NCBI RefSeq assembly: GCF_032884065.1
Contig: NC_088871.1
Span: 46,520,440-46,584,439 of the forward strand
DNA from: Artemia franciscana
Taxonomy: Eukaryota > Arthropoda > Branchiopoda > Anostraca > Artemiidae
DNA length: 64,000 bases
Reading direction: 5' to 3'
In this document: positions 24,006 through 51,764 of the stretch, one piece after another
Numbering within the stretch: the stretch's first letter is position 1
How the letters are laid out: each line of letters starts with the position of its first letter
Position numbers and translations under genes: made by a program
Notes under the pieces: generated by a model
What the model was told of the DNA's origin: nothing
What the model saw: the letters and a program-made list of their open reading frames with translations, nothing else
The model's database searches: none

Positions 24006-24676
24006 GGTAAGACAAATAATGTCATCCCAATAAAATGTATGCATGGATAACTTTAGTCTGCAAATTTTATTTTTAACTAAAAATTTTATTTACAATGGAA
24101 TAACAATGGTTCGTGAGTTCTGTAGATTTAATTTGCCGTGTTAAATTTATCTGATGTTCAAAATTATTGACGTAATTTTTGTTAGATCGAAAAAGATGCT
24201 TGATAAGCTTTCCCTAAAATCGGTCCTTCGGTACCCGGGGAGGTGTTTCTTTGGATTTACGGTAGCAGCTTGCTAATTCCGCTACCCGTTGAAAACTAAT
24301 AAATTAAAAAAAAAAAAATGACGCGGAAATAACTCCTTGTATATAAGGTGAAGCTGTCAACGATGTTTTTTCACAAAAATAAACGTATAACTTTTGTGAA
24401 TTAACATTGTTTTTATTTTTTGGGAAGGGGGTCAGGAAGGCAATGCATCGATATTGACTTTGGTTTCCTTTGCGTAACAGTTTTTTGGTGATTCAACGGA
24501 CAACCTATATGTATGCAGGCATTATAAAGTCGTAAAAATTACTTGTTGATTTCCATGATACCCGGTTTTAAACCCAAATAAGTTTGACCCTGGTACCAAA
24601 GAACAGACTTTAGTTTTAACGTGCCAGAAGTCACCTTTTAATAGCAAACAACTTTTAATTTTATTCCTTTTCTTAG

Positions 24677-25106
24677 AAATTCGAAATCATCAAAGATGCT
24701 CCCAACTAACTCTTGGGATTTCCTTCTGGGCAACGAGAGAATGTTTCCCGAACAACCAATTTATGAATGCTGCCCAACTGTTATGGAGCTTGTGGAGCCA
24801 AAAGGAGCAATAAATATAGAAGGAGAACTGGTGGAGCTATTTCGTGATTCAGAAACTGGGCAGAGGTTTTTTGAACATTCCTGCCGGTCCGACGTTGTGA
24901 ACAAGCCATGTGCATTTGTTGATAAAAAAGCGAAGAAACATTCCTTATGTGTGCAAAAATATACATACACTTATGCTCTTATTAGGGATTTTAGTTCTAA
25001 GAAACATTGGAAGCTAGATTATATAAAAATTAGAGGTGGCTGTGCTTGTGAAATACTTCCTCAAAAAGGCAAAAAAAAGAAAAAAGGGAGAAAAAGGAGG
25101 CCTTGA
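24677..25106 (+). CDS. Spätzle/neurotrophin-like cystine-knot ligand, terminal exon
   Basis: The exon follows a good acceptor (TTATTCCTTTTCTTAG) and runs to TGA. From the Met at 24696 the Cys positions are 25, 26, 63, 72, 85, 116 and 118. The order Cys, Cys, Cys, Cys and a terminal Cys-X-Cys, with VEPKGAINIEGELVELFRD, CVQKYTYTYALI and WKLDYIKIRGGCACE, is that of the Spätzle knot. Spätzle proteins are secreted as pro-proteins, cleaved, and dimerise to activate Toll receptors; they include the insect neurotrophins. This exon holds essentially only the knot. An unusual Lys/Arg-rich tail follows the last Cys. The pro-domain and signal peptide must lie in upstream exons. Which Spätzle subfamily is not clear. 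Confidence 0.85.
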
Positions 25107-25119: not shown

Positions 25120-25364
25120 ATTGTTTTGTAATATATCAAATAAATATCTACTTTTTTAATCACTTTAGTTGATCCACTTAGAATAATAAAGGGGAATGAG
25201 AATGAAATAGGAAATGGAATTATGGTTCTGACTGTTGGTTCACACAGGTTCGTCTATTTATGGGGAGTCTTTGAAAATTTTTCTTAGAGGAGGAATCTTC
25301 AAAACATGTCCTACCCTGGTGTGGTATTTTAGTTTTTTTTAAACTTGGAAGTTAAATTGAATAA

Positions 25365-25510
25365 AAATTCGATTTGGATGTGCTTGGGAACTAATTCCTC
25401 CAAAAAGTAGGAAGAGAAAAAAGGAAGAAAAAGGATGCCTTGAATTTAAGAATATTTTTTTTTATAATATTCAAATACAATGCTACTTTTTAACTCACTT
25501 TAATTGGACC
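25365..25510 (+). pseudogene. Decayed partial duplicate of the Spätzle-like 3' end
   Basis: The segment reads GCAWELIPPKSRKRKKEEKG, against GCACEILPQKGKKKKKGRKR in the intact exon. It continues with a 3' flank alike to the intact one: CCTTGAATTTAAGAATA against CCTTGAACTTAACAATA, and TTTTTAACTCACTTTAATTG against TTTTTAATCACTTTAGTTGA. The second Cys of the terminal Cys-X-Cys is Trp here, so this copy cannot close the knot. Only the end of the exon is recognisable; the upstream part from about 25160 is lost. It is a tandem partial duplication with an offset of about 335 bases. Confidence 0.75.
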
Positions 25511-34615: not shown

Positions 34616-36005
34616 TCTTCATCCCTTCCATAGAATATTTAAACTGAGTGCTCATGAGCAAAAAAGTATGTTGACATTCAACTTAGTTTTAAAAGTTTAA
34701 CTTGGCGCATGTCTCGTGGAAGTTGCTTGTTACTAATAGCACTAATGAATCTTTTCTTTTTCTTATACTTTTTGTCTGTTTAAATATTTAAGCATGCCAT
34801 ATTATTTCAAAAGTAAACGGGTTACTATGATCAGTTTATAACGACTTCTGGTTTTAGTGTAATGTAAACAAATTTTGCCAAGTCAGAATTTTTTTATGAG
34901 CAAAAATATTTGTTGAGTACAAGGTTGACTGCTAAATTTATGTATTTAAGAAATTCCTAGCAAAAAAGCTAACCATGTCATCTTTAATAATAGTTCTACT
35001 TTGACACTTTAGGTTTTATGAAGGGAAAATATAATTTCTAAGTTTTGGGTGACTTGCTTATAAATAAAAAAAATATTTCAGTAAAATATAAATAAACAAC
35101 AAATAGCGATCGTTAACAAACATTAGAAAAATAGAACGCAAAATAAGTACAAAATATGTCAAATATAGACCGATACTACTAATTCCAGTAATTTATTGCA
35201 GTTTCTGACCACCTAAAGTCACTACAGTTTTGCTCACTAAAATGCTCACTAAAATAACGACTGACAACAAAATTCGAATTATAAAATAAAAAGCATGGAA
35301 ATAGTAACATAATATTTACCGAAGTCTCAATCTCGGTCGGTAAATACAACGGCTTTACCGAATCGAGCAGTGATTTTATGTATCATATTCAAAACGGACA
35401 TTATGCTAATGATTAAAAAAAAACAGTCGGTAAAAATGACCAACTAGTCGGTAATATTCTTCACTCCCCCTAAGTATTTTGACTAGTAACGACCCTGCTT
35501 TTAGCCACAAAAATAGCCCATCAAGGTTTTTTTTTGTCTAGTATATATATTTGTCTATTATGTTTTCTCCAGTATATACATCCCTAAATATATATACATA
35601 AGTATGTATTCGTATATTTCATATATATTCCTTAACCATGCGTAAAGAAGAAAGTTTTTGATAAGGACAGAATATATTCTTATTGCAGGGCTATTCCCCC
35701 TTATTACCTCCCCTTTTATTGCAGGACTATTTTAAGAGTACCTTTAATTTGTGAGGCTTAAAGTGGCTTGCTTTAAATTTCAATGTATGTTACAAAAATA
35801 TAAAAAAATATATATATAATAACGACTGACAACAAAATTTGAAGCATAGAATGTAATATAATCTAACCATCAAAGAGGACCATCAAAAATTCCTATATAT
35901 ATATATATAATGTGTGTGTGAATACATATATATATACTCTCAAACCTTTCCCACAACAATGTGCAAATCAAAAAGTGTTTGATAAGGAAAAAAAATAGTC
36001 ATTAA
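34616..36005. other. No gene; TA-rich low complexity
   Basis: TATA-type runs at about 35540-35630, 35807-35820 and 35893-35935; otherwise AT-rich sequence. TGACAACAAAATT occurs twice (about 35262 and 35827). This is the 3' flank of the Trunk-like gene. Confidence 0.5.
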
Positions 36006-36007
36006 TG

Positions 36008-36013
36008 TTTATT
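36008..36013 (-). promoter_or_regulatory. Polyadenylation signal of the Trunk-like gene
   Basis: On the minus strand AATAAA lies 29 bases after the final stop codon (TAG at 36043-36045). A T-rich tract follows. Confidence 0.6.
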
Positions 36014-36042: not shown

Positions 36043-36678
36043 CTAGAAACTGCACTGACAAAAAACGGTTACATTCTTATTTTGGAACTTCCAAAGACGC
36101 TGAAAGGAGTCTGGAAGTAAAATATCAGTAACGTCACATTCTTCCTCATCACTACTTACAAACCTTCTCAGAACTTTAACTGACTATACTTTTGGCCTGC
36201 AAGAATAGAGGGAGTTCATGCATCTCCTTGCTCCGCAGTCAGCTGTTCTAAGGAAACGAGGATAAAAGTTTTGTTCAAGGTCGATCCATTTATAGTGTAC
36301 TGCACACTCCCAGGATAAAGCTATCGATCCCTTTTCTAAATTTAGCTCTTCAAGGTTACGAGCTTTTTTGTCTGTTTCGGCCATAATTGATCTCTTAAAT
36401 TCTGTTCCCATCAGACTTCGTAATTGAGGTATGTAATGATTACAATGACGTGTCTTCTGGCGTGAAGTTTTATCATACTCGAATGCTTCGAGGTGTGGCT
36501 CACTTTTTTGAGTATCCTTTTGATCAAGCATCAGCCAAAAATCCCAGAATGTATCAATGCCACTAGGCAGGAACAAAGGACTTCTATTCGGCGGAACTAC
36601 GTTTATTTCGAGTTGTTTTGACAAGTTAGTCATCCATAAAAAAAAGATACTTAGAGAGGTTTTGGGGTTTGATAACAA
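36043..36678 (-). CDS. Trunk/PTTH-family cystine-knot ligand, with one in-frame TAG
   Basis: The frame carries CNHYIPQLRSLMGTEF (pro-domain motif), WECAVHYKWIDLEQNFYPRF, LRTADC, SLYSCRPKV, then a TAG (36184-36186). It continues in the same frame with SVKVLRRFVSS, LLPDSFQRLWKFQNKNVTV and the terminal FCQC. Counted from the Met at 36633, Cys 110, 133, 138, 145, 166, 192 and 194 form a seven-Cys set like that of Trunk and PTTH, which activate the Torso receptor kinase; noggin is a relative. Codon 150 (TAG) sits where a residue such as Tyr is expected before S-V-K-V-L. The natural start and signal peptide are probably in an upstream exon. The TAG may be a nonsense mutation, an assembly error or a readthrough site. 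Confidence 0.75.
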
Positions 36679-36759
36679 ATTGGTATTTATAGATTCTGTT
36701 TTTCCTCACATTTATTATGAGCTTATTCTGATTGTCTTCAGCGTCGTTTTCTAGCTTAG

Positions 36760-43689: not shown

Positions 43690-46600
43690 TGTCGTCCCAC
43701 AGCACTCGTACGGGATTCTGATTATTGGATAATTTTCTGGGCTTGGTTTGTTTTGATGGGCGTTTTCGGGCTGAAAAACCTCTTCCTAGCTAATTTATCT
43801 ACTATGGGCTGCCTCCCCGTAGTAGCATAATATTTGTAGGCATGAATATATAATGAGTCGGAGGTAATAGGCTTGGGACTGTCTGTGCAGGATTTCGACT
43901 CTTGTTGATAGAAGAGCATCGCCAAGTGCTGAAAACCATGTTGTGACCAAGATGGGCCCAGGATTGCACAAAGCCTCCAACTTACTGGAGGTCCCAGGGA
44001 CTTCTTGCTGTCCGGTTAAAAGCCGGCTTAAGCGCTTCGGTGCAGACTTGAGAAGATATGTTGGTCCCCATTCTGCACTGGTATCCGGGATCACTGCTTT
44101 TCTTGAGGCCAAAATAATTTCAAAGATTTAAAGAACATGAAAATTGGAACTTGGAATGTTACGACGTTAAAAAATGACTATCGCATCGACATTTTAACTG
44201 ACGAATTCAGACGGTTTGAACTGGATTTATTAGGAGTTTCAGAAACTCATATCCCAGGGGTAGGAAGAATGAAATTAGGTGACATAGAATTTGTTTACTC
44301 AGGCAGGAAGGATGGGGTACATAGACAGGGAGTAGGGCTCATGATGAATAAGGAAGCTGCTAAGTCTTGTTTAGGCTGGGAAGGTATTAATAATAGAATA
44401 CTAATTGCTCATTTATGACTAAAAAGTTTAGGGTATCAGTTATAGTAGTATATGCCCCCATTGAGCCAACTGATGGAGATACTAGTGACTCAGATGAATT
44501 TTACTTACAGTTACAGGAGCAAATGGACAGGGTACCAGGTAGAAATATGGTGTTTTTGCTAGGAGATTTTAATGCCCAGGTTGGTAGAAATAGGGATAGA
44601 TGGTATCCTAGCCTCAGTAAATTTGGTGTAGGAAAAGAAAACAGTAATGGCTATAGGCTTTTGCAATTTTGTAGGTATAACAACCTAGTTATAACCAATA
44701 CGGTGTTTGGTCACAAAATGGCCCATAAGTTGACATGGTATTCACGTGATGGTAAGACAGCAAACCTTATTGATTATGTTATTGTAAACAGAAGACTAGC
44801 AGGATCAACACAAGATACTAGGGTGTGTAGGAGTGCCGTTATTGATGTTAAAAGTAAAGATCACCATCTAGTAGTGTCTAAGGTTAATTTAAAGCTGAAA
44901 TTTCGGAAGGGTAACTCCCTCCCGGAAAGTTATGATGTTGGTAGACTTCAGGATGAAAATTTGAGAAAAAAATTCCAGGAACAGTTGAGTACTAAACTTG
45001 AGGGTTTAAAATTTGACAATGTGGAAGATGGATGGAATAATTTCAGAAAAACAATTTGTGAAATTGCTGATGGTGTCCTAGGGAAGAGTGCAAAGACAGC
45101 AACTAGGAATATTAGTGAAAAAGCTTTAGGTTTAATAGAGAGTAGAAGGGGTTTGTATAAGAATTATCTGAGTGATAGGTCGTATGAAAACAAAAGGAAT
45201 GTAAAGAAAGTGGAGAAAGCATTGAAATATGAACTAAGGAGATGTGAAATGGAGGCGATGGATAAAATTGCTGAGGATCTGGAAGATGCGGCTAGACGGC
45301 ATAATAGTAAAATATTATACTGGCATGTTAATAAACTAAAAGGGAGTAGCAAATCCGGACTAGTCCCAGTTAAAGATAGAAATGGGGCCACAATTAGTGA
45401 TAAGGAAAAAGTTAAAGAAAGATGGGTGGAACATTTTGAGAATGTGCAAAAACCGAGATTCAGTTGCAGGAAAAGATATAGATGAAAATGAAAATGTTTG
45501 TGATACCTTGGATGTGAAGGAAGATTTGTTTAGTGAGGAAGAATTAGCGACAGTACTAGAAGGATTAAAAAATAATAAGGCCCCAGGTGCTGATAGTATG
45601 ATTAATGAGTTCCTTAAATATGGTGGCTCTGAGGTCAGGAATAAGCTACTGAAGATTATGAACATGATTTTTGAAAAAGGGGAAGTACCCAATGATTTTA
45701 GGAAAACCTTAATTAAACCACTGTATAAGAAAGGTGACAAGAGTGAGTGTCGTAATTATCGAGGCATTAGTCTGGTCTCTGTAGGTAGCAAATTACTAAG
45801 TAATATGATACTTTTTAGACTGAGACATGCTGTAGACAAAGTTTCAAGGGAAGAACAATGGGGTTTTAGAAAAGGTAGAGGATGTGTCGACCATGTTTTC
45901 ACTCTTAGGTTAATAATTGAGAAGTCCCTTCGTTGTCAAACGCCTTTGGTTCTTAGTTTTATCGATTATGAGCAAGCTTTCGATTCTGTTGATAGAACAG
46001 CGTTAACAAAGGTCTTATCGTTATATGGTATGCCAGAAAAATACATTAAAGTGATTTGCGCTATGTACGAGAATAATACTGCTGCGGTTAAGGTAGGAAA
46101 TGAGGTTAGCAACTGGTTTTGTATTAAATCAGGAGTTAAGCAGGGTTGTGTTCTATCCCTCTTTATATGGATCATTTTGATGGACTTCGTCTTAAGGAGC
46201 ACAGGAAAGGCAATTGGAGACCATGGAATCAAATGGGGAGGAAGAACGCTCCTGGACTTAGATTATGCTGATGATTTAAGCATATTAGATGAAAGTGTGA
46301 GCAAAATGAATGAATTTTTAGAGGTTTTACGAGTTCAGGGTGCTAAAATAGGCTTGAAAATTAATGTTAAGAAGACTAAGTCACTAAGGCTAGGAATAAG
46401 TGAAGATGAACAGGTGACATTAGGTAAAGAAAACATTGATCAGGTTGGGAGCTTCAGTTACCTTGGCAGTATTATTAGTAAAGATGGTGGGAGCAGTGAA
46501 GATGTTAAAAGTAGAATAGCTAAAGCTCAGGGTGTTTTTTCACAGTTAAAAAAAGTTTGGAAGAATAGAAAGATAAGCCTACAAACCAAGATTAGAATAT

Positions 46601-47085
46601 TGGAAGCTACAGTGATGACAGTGGTCAAATATGGCTCTGAAGCATGGGCACTCCGAAAAGCAGATGAAAATTTACTAGATGTTTTCCAGAGAAATTGCCT
46701 ACGGATTGTTGTGGGTACCCGGCTGACTGACCGTATTTCAAACAGTAGGTTGTACGAAAAGTGTGGTTCAATCCCGCTTTCTGGGGCTATAATGAAAGAA
46801 AGGTTGAGATGGCTAGGCCACGTTCTACGGATGAAGGATGACAGATTACCGAAGATTGTACTTTTTGGCCAACCGTCTGGGGCTACACGGAAAGCAGGTC
46901 GTCCTTGTCCGGGTTGGGAGGATGTCATAAATAACGATTTAAAGGAAATGGGAACTTCCTGGGAGGGTGTAAAGAGGGAGGCTTTAAATAGATTAGGTTG
47001 GAGGAGGAACGTGCGTAGCTGTGTTGGCCTCAGGCGGCTTGGTGCTGCAGTGAGTTATTAGTAGTAGTAGTAGTAGTAGTTTACC
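43690..47085 (+). mobile_element. RTE-clade non-LTR retrotransposon, nearly full length
   Basis: A single long coding region (endonuclease then reverse transcriptase) from 44137 to 47061 is followed at once by a short-repeat tail (TTATTAGTAGTAGTAGTAGT to about 47083), the typical RTE ending. At least four shorter copies of its 3' or RT region lie elsewhere in the window (5985, 6470, 6912, 54360). The 5' UTR boundary is uncertain; 43690 is an estimate. LINE-C begins right after the tail. Confidence 0.85.
44137..47061 (+). pseudogene. RTE ORF: endonuclease plus reverse transcriptase, two frameshifts
   Basis: The endonuclease starts MKIGTWNVTTLKNDYRIDIL with LLGVSETHIPG. After a shift at about 44412 it continues with VVYAPIEP, FLLGDFNAQVG and SKDHHLVVSKV. 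A second shift in CAAAAACC at about 45443-45450 leads to the RT part with NNKAPGADSMINEFLKYGG, DFRKTLIKPLYKKGDKSE, EQWGFRKGRGCVDHVF, FIDYEQAFDSVDRTAL, SGVKQGCVLSLFIW and the catalytic LDYADDLSIL. The C-terminus ends GLRRLGAAVSY. These enzymes nick DNA and copy RNA at the nick. Both breaks are consistent with single-base indels, so the copy is young, or the breaks are assembly errors. The region used to be annotated in many animals as a craniofacial-development-like protein. Confidence 0.9.
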
Positions 47086-48654: not shown

Positions 48655-51600
48655 ATGAGCGTGAATAGATATGATGACGCTTTGAATGAATTTGAACAAA
48701 ACCGGTTTATTCTTGGAAGCCAAGCTCGTGACACACTTGCGGGGGATGATGATTGCATCAATAATTTTTCGCTGAATTGTCGCCCAAGTAATTATGTGAA
48801 TCCGAATAATCTTTATGAGTATTCAAAACCTGTGAGTGCAGATGAAAGAGCGATCGTGTTCTGGAATTGTCAAGGTCTAAGAACGGCATATTCTCCTCTA
48901 TGTGAGATTTTAAGTTTACTATATAAGAAACCGTATATTGTAGGCCTATGTGAGACATTTGTTTCTAGCATATCACTGCCCTGGGATTATTCTTTTCCGG
49001 GATATGTTTGCGAGCGAAGAGAACGGACAACCATGGAGCGGGGCGGTCTATGTATTTTGATAAATGATGGTACCCAATATTGGGTTAGGGATGACCTCTC
49101 CCTGTGGCTGGAAGGTAGGATCGAAACCCTTTTCATAGAAATAAAAAATGAAGGGAAAAAAAATTGATTTTGGGGTTAATTTACAAAAATCCGTCATGTG
49201 ATATTAGTTTTTTTATTGATGAATTTGAATTGTTATTAGATAAAATTAACAATGAAAATAAAAATAAATTTATGATGGGAGATTTTAATATTGATTTACT
49301 AAAAAAAGTGAATAGCTCAGATTTTGTTAATATGATGGTGTCACATGATAGTTTTCCTCTTGTAACTATTCCAACTCGGATTTCGCATCTTTCGGCCACC
49401 TTAATTGATAATTTCTTCGTTAATGGTGAATTACTTGAAAGATCCCAAGCAGATGTGATTGTGTATGACGGGTCGGATCACCTTGTTTTAATAAGTAAAA
49501 TAAAGCTGAATCAGTCAAAGGAAAATAAACGGTGTGCAAAGGCATCGTTTTACCGTGAAATGAAAAGTAAAAACCTAAACAGTTTTGCAAATAAGATGGA
49601 TGAAACGAATTTTTCGCGTGTAATAGAGGAAAAGTGTCCATATGCAGCATATGACCTCTTCAGTGAGATAGTGACTAATGTAATGAATGAAACATGTCCC
49701 TTACGGAAAATTAACCCTAATAGAAATTTTCCTAAGAAACCATGGATAACAAAAGCCATTCTAGTTTCAATAAAGAAGAAAAACCAACTTTATGTGAATT
49801 ATTTAATGGATCGTTCAAATGATAATTTTATAAAATTCAAAAAGTTTCGGAATATTTTAAATTCAGTAAAACGGAAAGCTCAGAAACTTCATTTCCAAAA
49901 TGAATTTCATGAAAATCAAGGTAATATGAAAAATACATGGAAAACAATAAATAAACTTTTGGGTAATTTTCACAGCAGGGAGGAGGTGAGAGCCATGGAG
50001 ACGACGGAAGGTCGTCTTACTGATTCTAAACACATAGCGGAATTTCTGTGTGATTATTTTGCAAATGAAGGAAAAAGACTTTGCGATCAAGCGCGGGCTA
50101 GCTTACGCACATCTGTGAGTTTTGGATCTGTTATTGAAAGACAGCCTGCAAGTGAGAATTCCTTTGAATTTGCAAGATGTTTGGAACTGGAATTGGCACA
50201 ATTCCTGGATACGATGAAATCGAGTTCTAGTGGGATGGATGAGTTTTCGCTGAAACTCATAAAAGCCGCAAAAACGAGTGTCTTACCTGTCTTGACGCAC
50301 CTCATCAACCTTTCTCTGGATCATGGAGTCTTCCCGAAAGCACTAAAAATTGCAAGAGTGGTTCCTCTTCATAAAGGAGGGAAAAAAGATGACCCATCGA
50401 ATCGAAGACCTATATCTATTCTTCCATTTTTCTCTAAGCTATATGAGAAAGTTGTACATGCACAGTTAAGTAATTATATTGAAAAGAAAAAAATTCTAAT
50501 GGAAAACCAATTTGGGTTCAGAAAAGGGCTATCTACAGATATGGCAGTTCTTAAATTGGTTGATTGGATTAATGATTCATTTGAAGCTGGTCTTATACCT
50601 GCAGCTGTGTTTTTGGATATGAGAAAAGCGTTCGATACGGTGGACCACTCAGGGCTTATTCAAGTTCTTGCCTCGATTGGGGTGAGGGGTTCAAGCCTTG
50701 AGTGGTTTTCATCATGTATACATGACCGGTATCAGATAGTACAGAATGGATCATTTTTATCTTCAAAAAAGAAAATAGAGTGCGGGGTCCCACAAGGGTC
50801 AATCCTGGGACCCCTCCTTTTCATCATCTTTATTGATCGAATGAAGCATTACCTGTTGGAGGCTAATGTCATCCTAATTGCAGATGACGCTTTGCTCTTT
50901 CTAGCTGCGCCTTGGCTTGATGTTTTGTATAATAAAATCCATAATGCTGTCTCTGAATTTCTAAATTTTTCTCAACAAAATTTGTTAACCCTAAACTTTT
51001 CTAAAACTATTTTCATGATATTCTCAAGACTTTCGTCAAGTGATCAAATCATGGTTCGAGGAAATGTGATAAAAAGAGTAGCAACAACAAAATATTTGGG
51101 GTTTTTAATTGATGAAAACCTGTCGTGGAAAAACCATTCAAATGCTATAGCTGAAAAATTAAGCAGAGGTCTAGGGGTGATGCGAAGAATTAAAAATCTA
51201 GTCCCAAAAAAGATTCTAAAAATGATTTATTTTTCTATTTTTTATCCATATATTAGCTACGGATGCTCTATATGGGCAAGTAATTTTGTAACATGTTTCA
51301 AAAGGGTACAAAAACTTCAGAATAGAGCTGTAAAATTATTATCGGAATTTTATGATTCTGATAATGTTCCTGATCATGAGCATTTTAAAAAGAATAAGTT
51401 AATGGATGTATCTCAAATTCGTGATTACCAGGTTGCGATTTTCTTGTATAAATATTTGAATCACCTGCTCACCCCTGCTTTTGAAAATCTTTTTACTTGT
51501 AATAGAGACCATCATGATCATAATACAAGAAAAGCTGACAACTTAACTCATGAGTTTAGGAGTACTACTCGGGCATCTTTTGTGATTCGCCATTATGGTC

Positions 51601-51764
51601 CCCATGTTTGGAATATTTTGCCCGAGGGTGTGAAAAATGCGCCTAGTCTTCTGGCTTTCAAGTCACGGGTAAAGAAGTTTCTTTTATCTCGTGAATTGCC
51701 CTGTTCCAGGTTGTCATTTTATTCAAGGCATTTCCCTGATTTACTTGCTGTTAATTTCTGTTGA
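48655..51764 (+). pseudogene. LINE-C ORF2: endonuclease plus reverse transcriptase, one frameshift
   Basis: The first 170 residues contain VFWNCQGLRTAYSPLCEIL, VGLCETF and GGLCILIND, the endonuclease start with its Asn and Glu. At an A8 run (49156-49163) the frame shifts; one more A would restore it. The 866-residue second part has LGLIYKNPSCDISFF, FMMGDFNIDLLKK, YDGSDHLVLISKI, then RT motifs SSSGMDEFSLKLIK, NQFGFRKGLSTDMAVLKLV, VFLDMRKAFDTVDHSGL, CGVPQGSILGPLLF and LIADDALLF. The ADD catalytic pair is kept, with Ile in place of the usual Phe or Tyr before it. The C-terminus has HVWNILPEGVKNAPSLLAFK. Joined length would be about 1037 residues, normal for the group. No RNase H domain is seen. 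Confidence 0.9.

Follow-up and report, generated by a model that had tools for sequence, protein, structure and literature searches.

What does a single in-frame TAG mean when it falls within the cystine-knot exon of a ligand gene that shows no other damage there? The question is raised by a minus-strand coding frame of Artemia franciscana, found in a window of 64,000 nucleotides (the whole stretch of DNA analysed, C9:46520440-46584439, with a GC content of 31-39%). A sequence-only reading had taken the frame for a Trunk/PTTH-like ligand and had left three explanations for its TAG, namely a very recent nonsense mutation, a base error, or a recoded codon. The first of these proved the best fit: the TAG probably marks a nonsense allele of recent origin, either still segregating or fixed not long ago, in a Trunk-like gene of which there is a single copy. 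A base error is possible at the quality value of the assembly (QV 47.62), and recoding lost ground, since positive evidence for it did not emerge and the RNA fold around the codon is ordinary.

When read from 36705, the frame contains one internal stop, at 36184-36186 as had been proposed, and then stays open for 46 codons up to the terminal stop, which is followed by AATAAA (Table 1). The motifs SVKVLRR, LLPDSF and CQC are present as claimed. The boundary set at 36678 in the same reading is unsupported, and the stretch that it delimits includes no translation start. Cysteines occur in the read-through at residues 88, 134, 157, 162 and 169, and, past the TAG at codon 174, at residues 190, 216 and 218; three of the eight are thus 3' of the TAG, including the closing C-x-C. 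C88 belongs to the pro-region, and with it set aside the knot has seven cysteines, so that the earlier count of three in seven lost from a short form is correct.

Table 1. Positions in the window of the Trunk-like frame, its parts and its neighbouring signals.
Feature	Positions	Strand	Evidence
Trunk/PTTH/Noggin-like coding frame, 220 codons, one TAG	36046..36705	minus	Pfam Noggin, PDB 5aoq
Part before the TAG, 173 codons: pro-region plus N-terminal half of the knot (C134, C157, C162, C169)	36187..36705	minus	
Single in-frame TAG, codon 174, in the column of a Tyr in Bombyx PTTH	36184..36186	minus	
Part after the TAG, 46 codons: C-terminal half of the knot, containing C190, C216, C218 (C-x-C)	36046..36183	minus	
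Cystine-knot region, first to last knot Cys	36052..36306	minus	Cys positions and PTTH alignment
Terminal stop TAG	36043..36045	minus	
AATAAA, 29 bases 3' of the terminal stop	36008..36013	minus	
Candidate 3' splice site, the most pyrimidine-rich (exon start after tttgttcctgcctag)	36562	minus	consensus match, 12 AG sites listed
Second candidate 3' splice site	36649	minus	consensus match

No second stop or frameshift was found in the exon among the 219 sense codons examined, in which 106 of the 1971 possible single changes would produce a stop. The remaining two minus-strand frames over the gene stretch hold 14 and 23 stops. At the local base composition, 173 open codons have a chance of about 3e-6 per start, and 46 further open codons a chance of about 0.035. 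The improbability of these open runs, together with the alignment of the residues after the TAG with the tail of PTTH, argues that the frame is not a product of chance.

Homology extends across the TAG. With X at the stop, the read-through matched the Pfam family Noggin (PF05806) over residues 130-184 with 27 bits (cut-off 24.1, E 4.7e-6), a match that spans only positions 98-187 of the 211 in the profile, and the IL17 profile stayed below its cut-off of 24 with 21.6 bits (23.7 with the TAG as Tyr). The same query gave two matches in the PDB up to E 10, to 5aoq (PTTH; E 3.8e-4, residues 135-219) and to 1m4u (Noggin; E 0.0069, residues 99-172). The molecule in 5aoq is named PREPROPTTH, and we take it to be of Bombyx mori origin and a partner of Torso. 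The assignment to the Trunk/PTTH type is supported by the 5aoq matches and by the Noggin score above the Pfam cut-off. When the TAG was taken as Tyr the 5aoq match rose to E 1.2e-5, a gain that is partly built in because the substituted query is shorter and imports a Tyr. The aromatic residue that had been expected at the TAG agrees with the Tyr of PTTH, the single relative aligned at that column. Matches to a viral glycoprotein (E 0.33 and 0.49) were weak and were taken as chance.

Taken alone, the part before the TAG matched only Noggin (Pfam 1.7e-5; 1m4u E 0.012), and the part after it matched no Pfam family and gave no PTTH match in the PDB. The 46 residues after the TAG were also aligned globally with the tail of PTTH, giving a score of 50.5, which was reached by none of 20,000 shuffles and by none of 25,546 stretches of the window (sampled at every fifth position on both strands, with X for stops). 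Since the match goes beyond both backgrounds, the two halves are, judging by this alignment, one gene. AlphaFold2, run on the single sequence of a 100-residue piece of the read-through, gave a model with a mean pLDDT of 34.5, too low to inform on the fold.

Among known ligands, PTTH of Bombyx mori (5aoq) shares with the Artemia frame an alignable knot core over residues 135-219 and the terminal C-x-C, and reads Y-S-I-x-I-L-K-R where the Artemia frame reads X-S-V-K-V-L-R-R. PTTH differs in having a Tyr where Artemia has the TAG, and in an identity of 27% in the genome search, and the Artemia frame carries an extra cysteine (C190) with five more residues in the loop after it. Trunk, the putative arthropod Torso ligand, is probably alike in having a pro-region and a C-terminal knot. 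Noggin resembles the frame over residues 130-184 (Pfam) and 99-172 (1m4u), whereas the N-terminal part of the Noggin profile, where the BMP-binding clip is expected, is unmatched in Artemia.

PTTH is reported as absent from the crustacean Parhyale in a study that found trunk across many phyla (PMC6660194), and the crustacean member of the family is therefore expected to be Trunk. According to one study (PMC9071555), arthropod Noggin-like proteins can influence BMP as well as Torso/RTK signalling, and the exact pathway of the Artemia ligand may be either. The C-terminal cysteine knot of Drosophila Trunk has been called its Tor-binding region (PMC4640135), and a review notes that, as of 2018, Trunk had not been formally proven to be the Torso ligand (PMC6303783). 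A literature search found no paper joining Artemia, trunk and PTTH.

The 5' end of the gene is less sharply drawn. The only early in-frame ATG is at 36633, and no signal peptide was seen by eye after it; the true 5' end of the exon would lie somewhere inside or upstream of 36705. A crude scan for signal-peptide exons in the 27 kb upstream in the window returned one candidate under strict settings, which falls in a retroelement stretch, and 21 under lax settings, of which four share the phase of the two best acceptors; no convincing exon was found among them. The claim of an otherwise intact gene is consequently limited to the knot exon, and older decay of the 5' end is possible.

The copy number of the gene was assessed over the whole assembly (1,270,528,402 bases in 6,468 contigs). 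A DNA search returned one match, the gene's own locus, and a protein search returned five, the own locus at 1.6e-150 and four others at E 0.27-8.2. For the weak match at residues 158-211 (E 5.6), 3000 of 3162 bases of the underlying DNA were read and looked unrelated on inspection by eye; E-value alone was the ground for dismissing the other three. The Noggin profile PF05806 likewise found only the own locus (26.1 bits, E 0.0045), as did a fragment of Bombyx PTTH, in a weak search in which that locus itself reached just E 0.17. No tandem copy was found in the 100 kb below and the 110 kb above the window (two of the flanking stretches hold 4,768 and 18 N), and no relatives were found among the viral and prokaryote contigs scanned. 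A retroposed or tandem second copy was thus found neither in the window, nor in its flanks, nor in the assembly, and the Trunk-like ligand gene is probably single-copy in the assembly, with the proviso that these searches ran in six frames and exon by exon, and that a divergent or intron-split paralogue could escape them.

A recent single-base nonsense mutation, carried by the assembled haplotype in its cystine-knot exon, would account for these observations. As assembled, the allele would yield at best a pro-protein that stops after the fourth knot cysteine out of seven. Lacking C190, C216 and C218, this product should fail to form a closed knot and should be inactive, so that the truncated allele would give a Torso-type receptor no functional ligand, or would give no BMP antagonist if the protein is Noggin-like. 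If the allele is segregating, the function would be supplied by intact alleles. The mutation would be young, the rest of the frame being undamaged: had the gene been neutral since the TAG arose, the lack of a further lesion would bound divergence below about 0.03 (95%, with an assumed indel-to-substitution ratio of 0.1; 0.018-0.044 for assumed ratios of 0.2-0.05), and under that condition of neutrality the bound upholds the earlier description of the lesion as very recent.

Per gene, nonsense alleles are, in our view, probably several times more frequent than base errors that create a stop. We infer the nonsense allele from the assembled haplotype, not from an observed polymorphism. A heterozygosity of 0.655% has been reported for five adult Artemia progeny of one female (PMC7955100), in a survey taken to be the source of the short reads with which the assembly was polished. 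Purge Haplotigs was applied to the published female A. franciscana assembly (PMC11492255), so that the alternative allele was probably not kept in it. As no second copy was found, fixation of the loss would deprive the animal of the ligand family and may be costly, which slightly favours an error, a segregating allele or recoding over fixation. If the TAG is a nonsense allele, it would be a natural loss-of-function in what is seemingly the only Trunk/PTTH-family gene of A. franciscana, useful for asking what roles Torso ligands have outside insects.

An assembly base error, with a sense codon in the genome and an intact gene, is an unlikely explanation, which nevertheless draws on the same intactness of all other sense codons and on the Tyr of PTTH at the TAG column. 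PacBio errors are mostly indels, and the sequence surrounding the TAG (GTATAGTC) is not a homopolymer. The published female assembly, for which a QV of 47.62 and a GC content of 34.71% are given, was in addition polished with short reads taken from a previous genome survey (PMC11492255). At this QV, the chance of a base error giving a stop somewhere in the frame is about 6e-4, which is small but of the order of other rare events.

Recoding of the Artemia TAG is possible and appears doubtful. The UAG would be passed by ribosomal readthrough, or edited from A to I and so read as UGG (Trp), and two forms would result, a short one without activity and a long active one, in keeping with the intact and homologous half 3' of the TAG and with the finding of no second intact copy in the assembly. 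The A of the TAG is predicted to be paired (P 0.755) within a 17-pair helix, UAG is a favourable triplet for ADAR, and deaminase-domain (PF02137) sequences are present in the same genome. However, 78 of 400 synonymous shuffles produced a helix of 17 pairs or more, helices at least as long occur at 14 of 154 codon positions in the frame (a figure that includes the TAG itself and the neighbours in its helix), and the local fold, set against synonymous shuffles, revealed no unusually long double strand at the TAG adenosine. The fold energy is equally ordinary, with a z of 0.11 over 201 nt (matched or bettered by 104 of 200 shuffles) and of -0.57 over 601 nt (by 6 of 20).

In our judgement, known readthrough mostly extends a finished protein, and a stop inside a core domain is unusual. 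It has been conjectured that readthrough is abundant in insects and crustacea, with TAG second after TGA among fly readthrough stops and enriched in candidates with predicted RNA structure, although the same source describes fly and mosquito candidates as preferring TGA, with TAG less favoured, and loss as commoner at TAA and TAG (PMC5100048). The base following the Artemia TAG is T. Editing of premature UAG to UGG has been described for Fusarium (PMC5496914, PMC11156358), where the codon and the aromatic outcome are those proposed for Artemia; that system is fungal, and the fungi with this editing are described as having no ADAR. The more specific proposal, that the sole Torso-type ligand gene of Artemia carries a programmed UAG in its knot and that only its regulated override, by readthrough or by ADAR editing to UGG with Trp for the aromatic residue, yields active hormone, is improbable. 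Were the TAG recoded, hormone activity would be gated at one codon, an arrangement that, as far as we know, would be uncommon among animals.

That the gene is a pseudogene of greater age, dispensable for a long time, is very unlikely. The failure to find a signal-peptide exon upstream and the several retroelement frames in the window would suit such a relic, but the exon has no frameshift or second stop, its homology is intact on both sides of the TAG, and the bound on its neutral age is low. Instead of several disabling changes, which would mark a pseudogene, the exon carries one TAG only, and no other convincing locus that could represent an intact copy was found in the assembly, in which other alleles are probably not represented. 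Removal of the TAG by splicing, through an intron or an alternative junction across the codon, is scarcely credible, for although AG dinucleotides at and just past the TAG could serve as acceptors, the frame runs on without a break and shows homology to either side of the TAG, a longer intron would, by eye, take out conserved knot residues, and a micro-intron was rejected by eye because the nearest GT..AG pairs enclose 6-10 bases, too short to splice.

The window holds a second knot-ligand sequence 11 kb from the Trunk-like gene, placing two such ligands close together. It is an open plus-strand exon of the Spaetzle/neurotrophin type at 24645-25106, which matches the whole Pfam Spaetzle profile (6.1e-10). 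A weak echo of the Spaetzle-like tail, interrupted by stops, follows on the plus strand at 25313-25399 (52% identity, E 0.003) and is possibly a partial duplicate or a chance match. Long open retroelement frames occupy 44397-47061 and 48655-51764 on the plus strand, two with reverse transcriptase domains, and a 38-base repeat with 87% identity occurs downstream of the Trunk-like gene at 35250-35287 and 35815-35852. Rfam at its gathering threshold and ARAGORN gave no match in the window.

Elsewhere in the genome, the ADAR-type deaminase domain PF02137 had 124 matches, many of which lie in arrays built from a single repeated piece. Such arrays lie at C13:4244282-4249540 and C3:39498673-39540328 (parts of which are held by loci L035 and L036), and also on C314, C18, C6027 and C21. 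The L035 array consists of 10.3 copies of a 402-base unit (96% matches) that bears the CTDK...NVVGLQGALL piece, some copies with stops; the L036 array has four open units about 0.94-1.09 kb apart with the HAE-type piece, HAE itself being present in two of the four. One unit of each of these two arrays matches ADAR structures, and the arrays could be either exon-derived satellites or an exon-array gene. Two near-identical, uninterrupted and full-length deaminase-domain frames were found on C5 about 294 kb apart, at 19442547-19443641 and 19148258-19149352, with two differences by eye over the 365 residues translated; they may represent either a gene duplication or an assembly duplication. We presume that these C5 frames are perhaps ADAT1-like, and their best PDB match is an Adar-like editase (1.2e-35).
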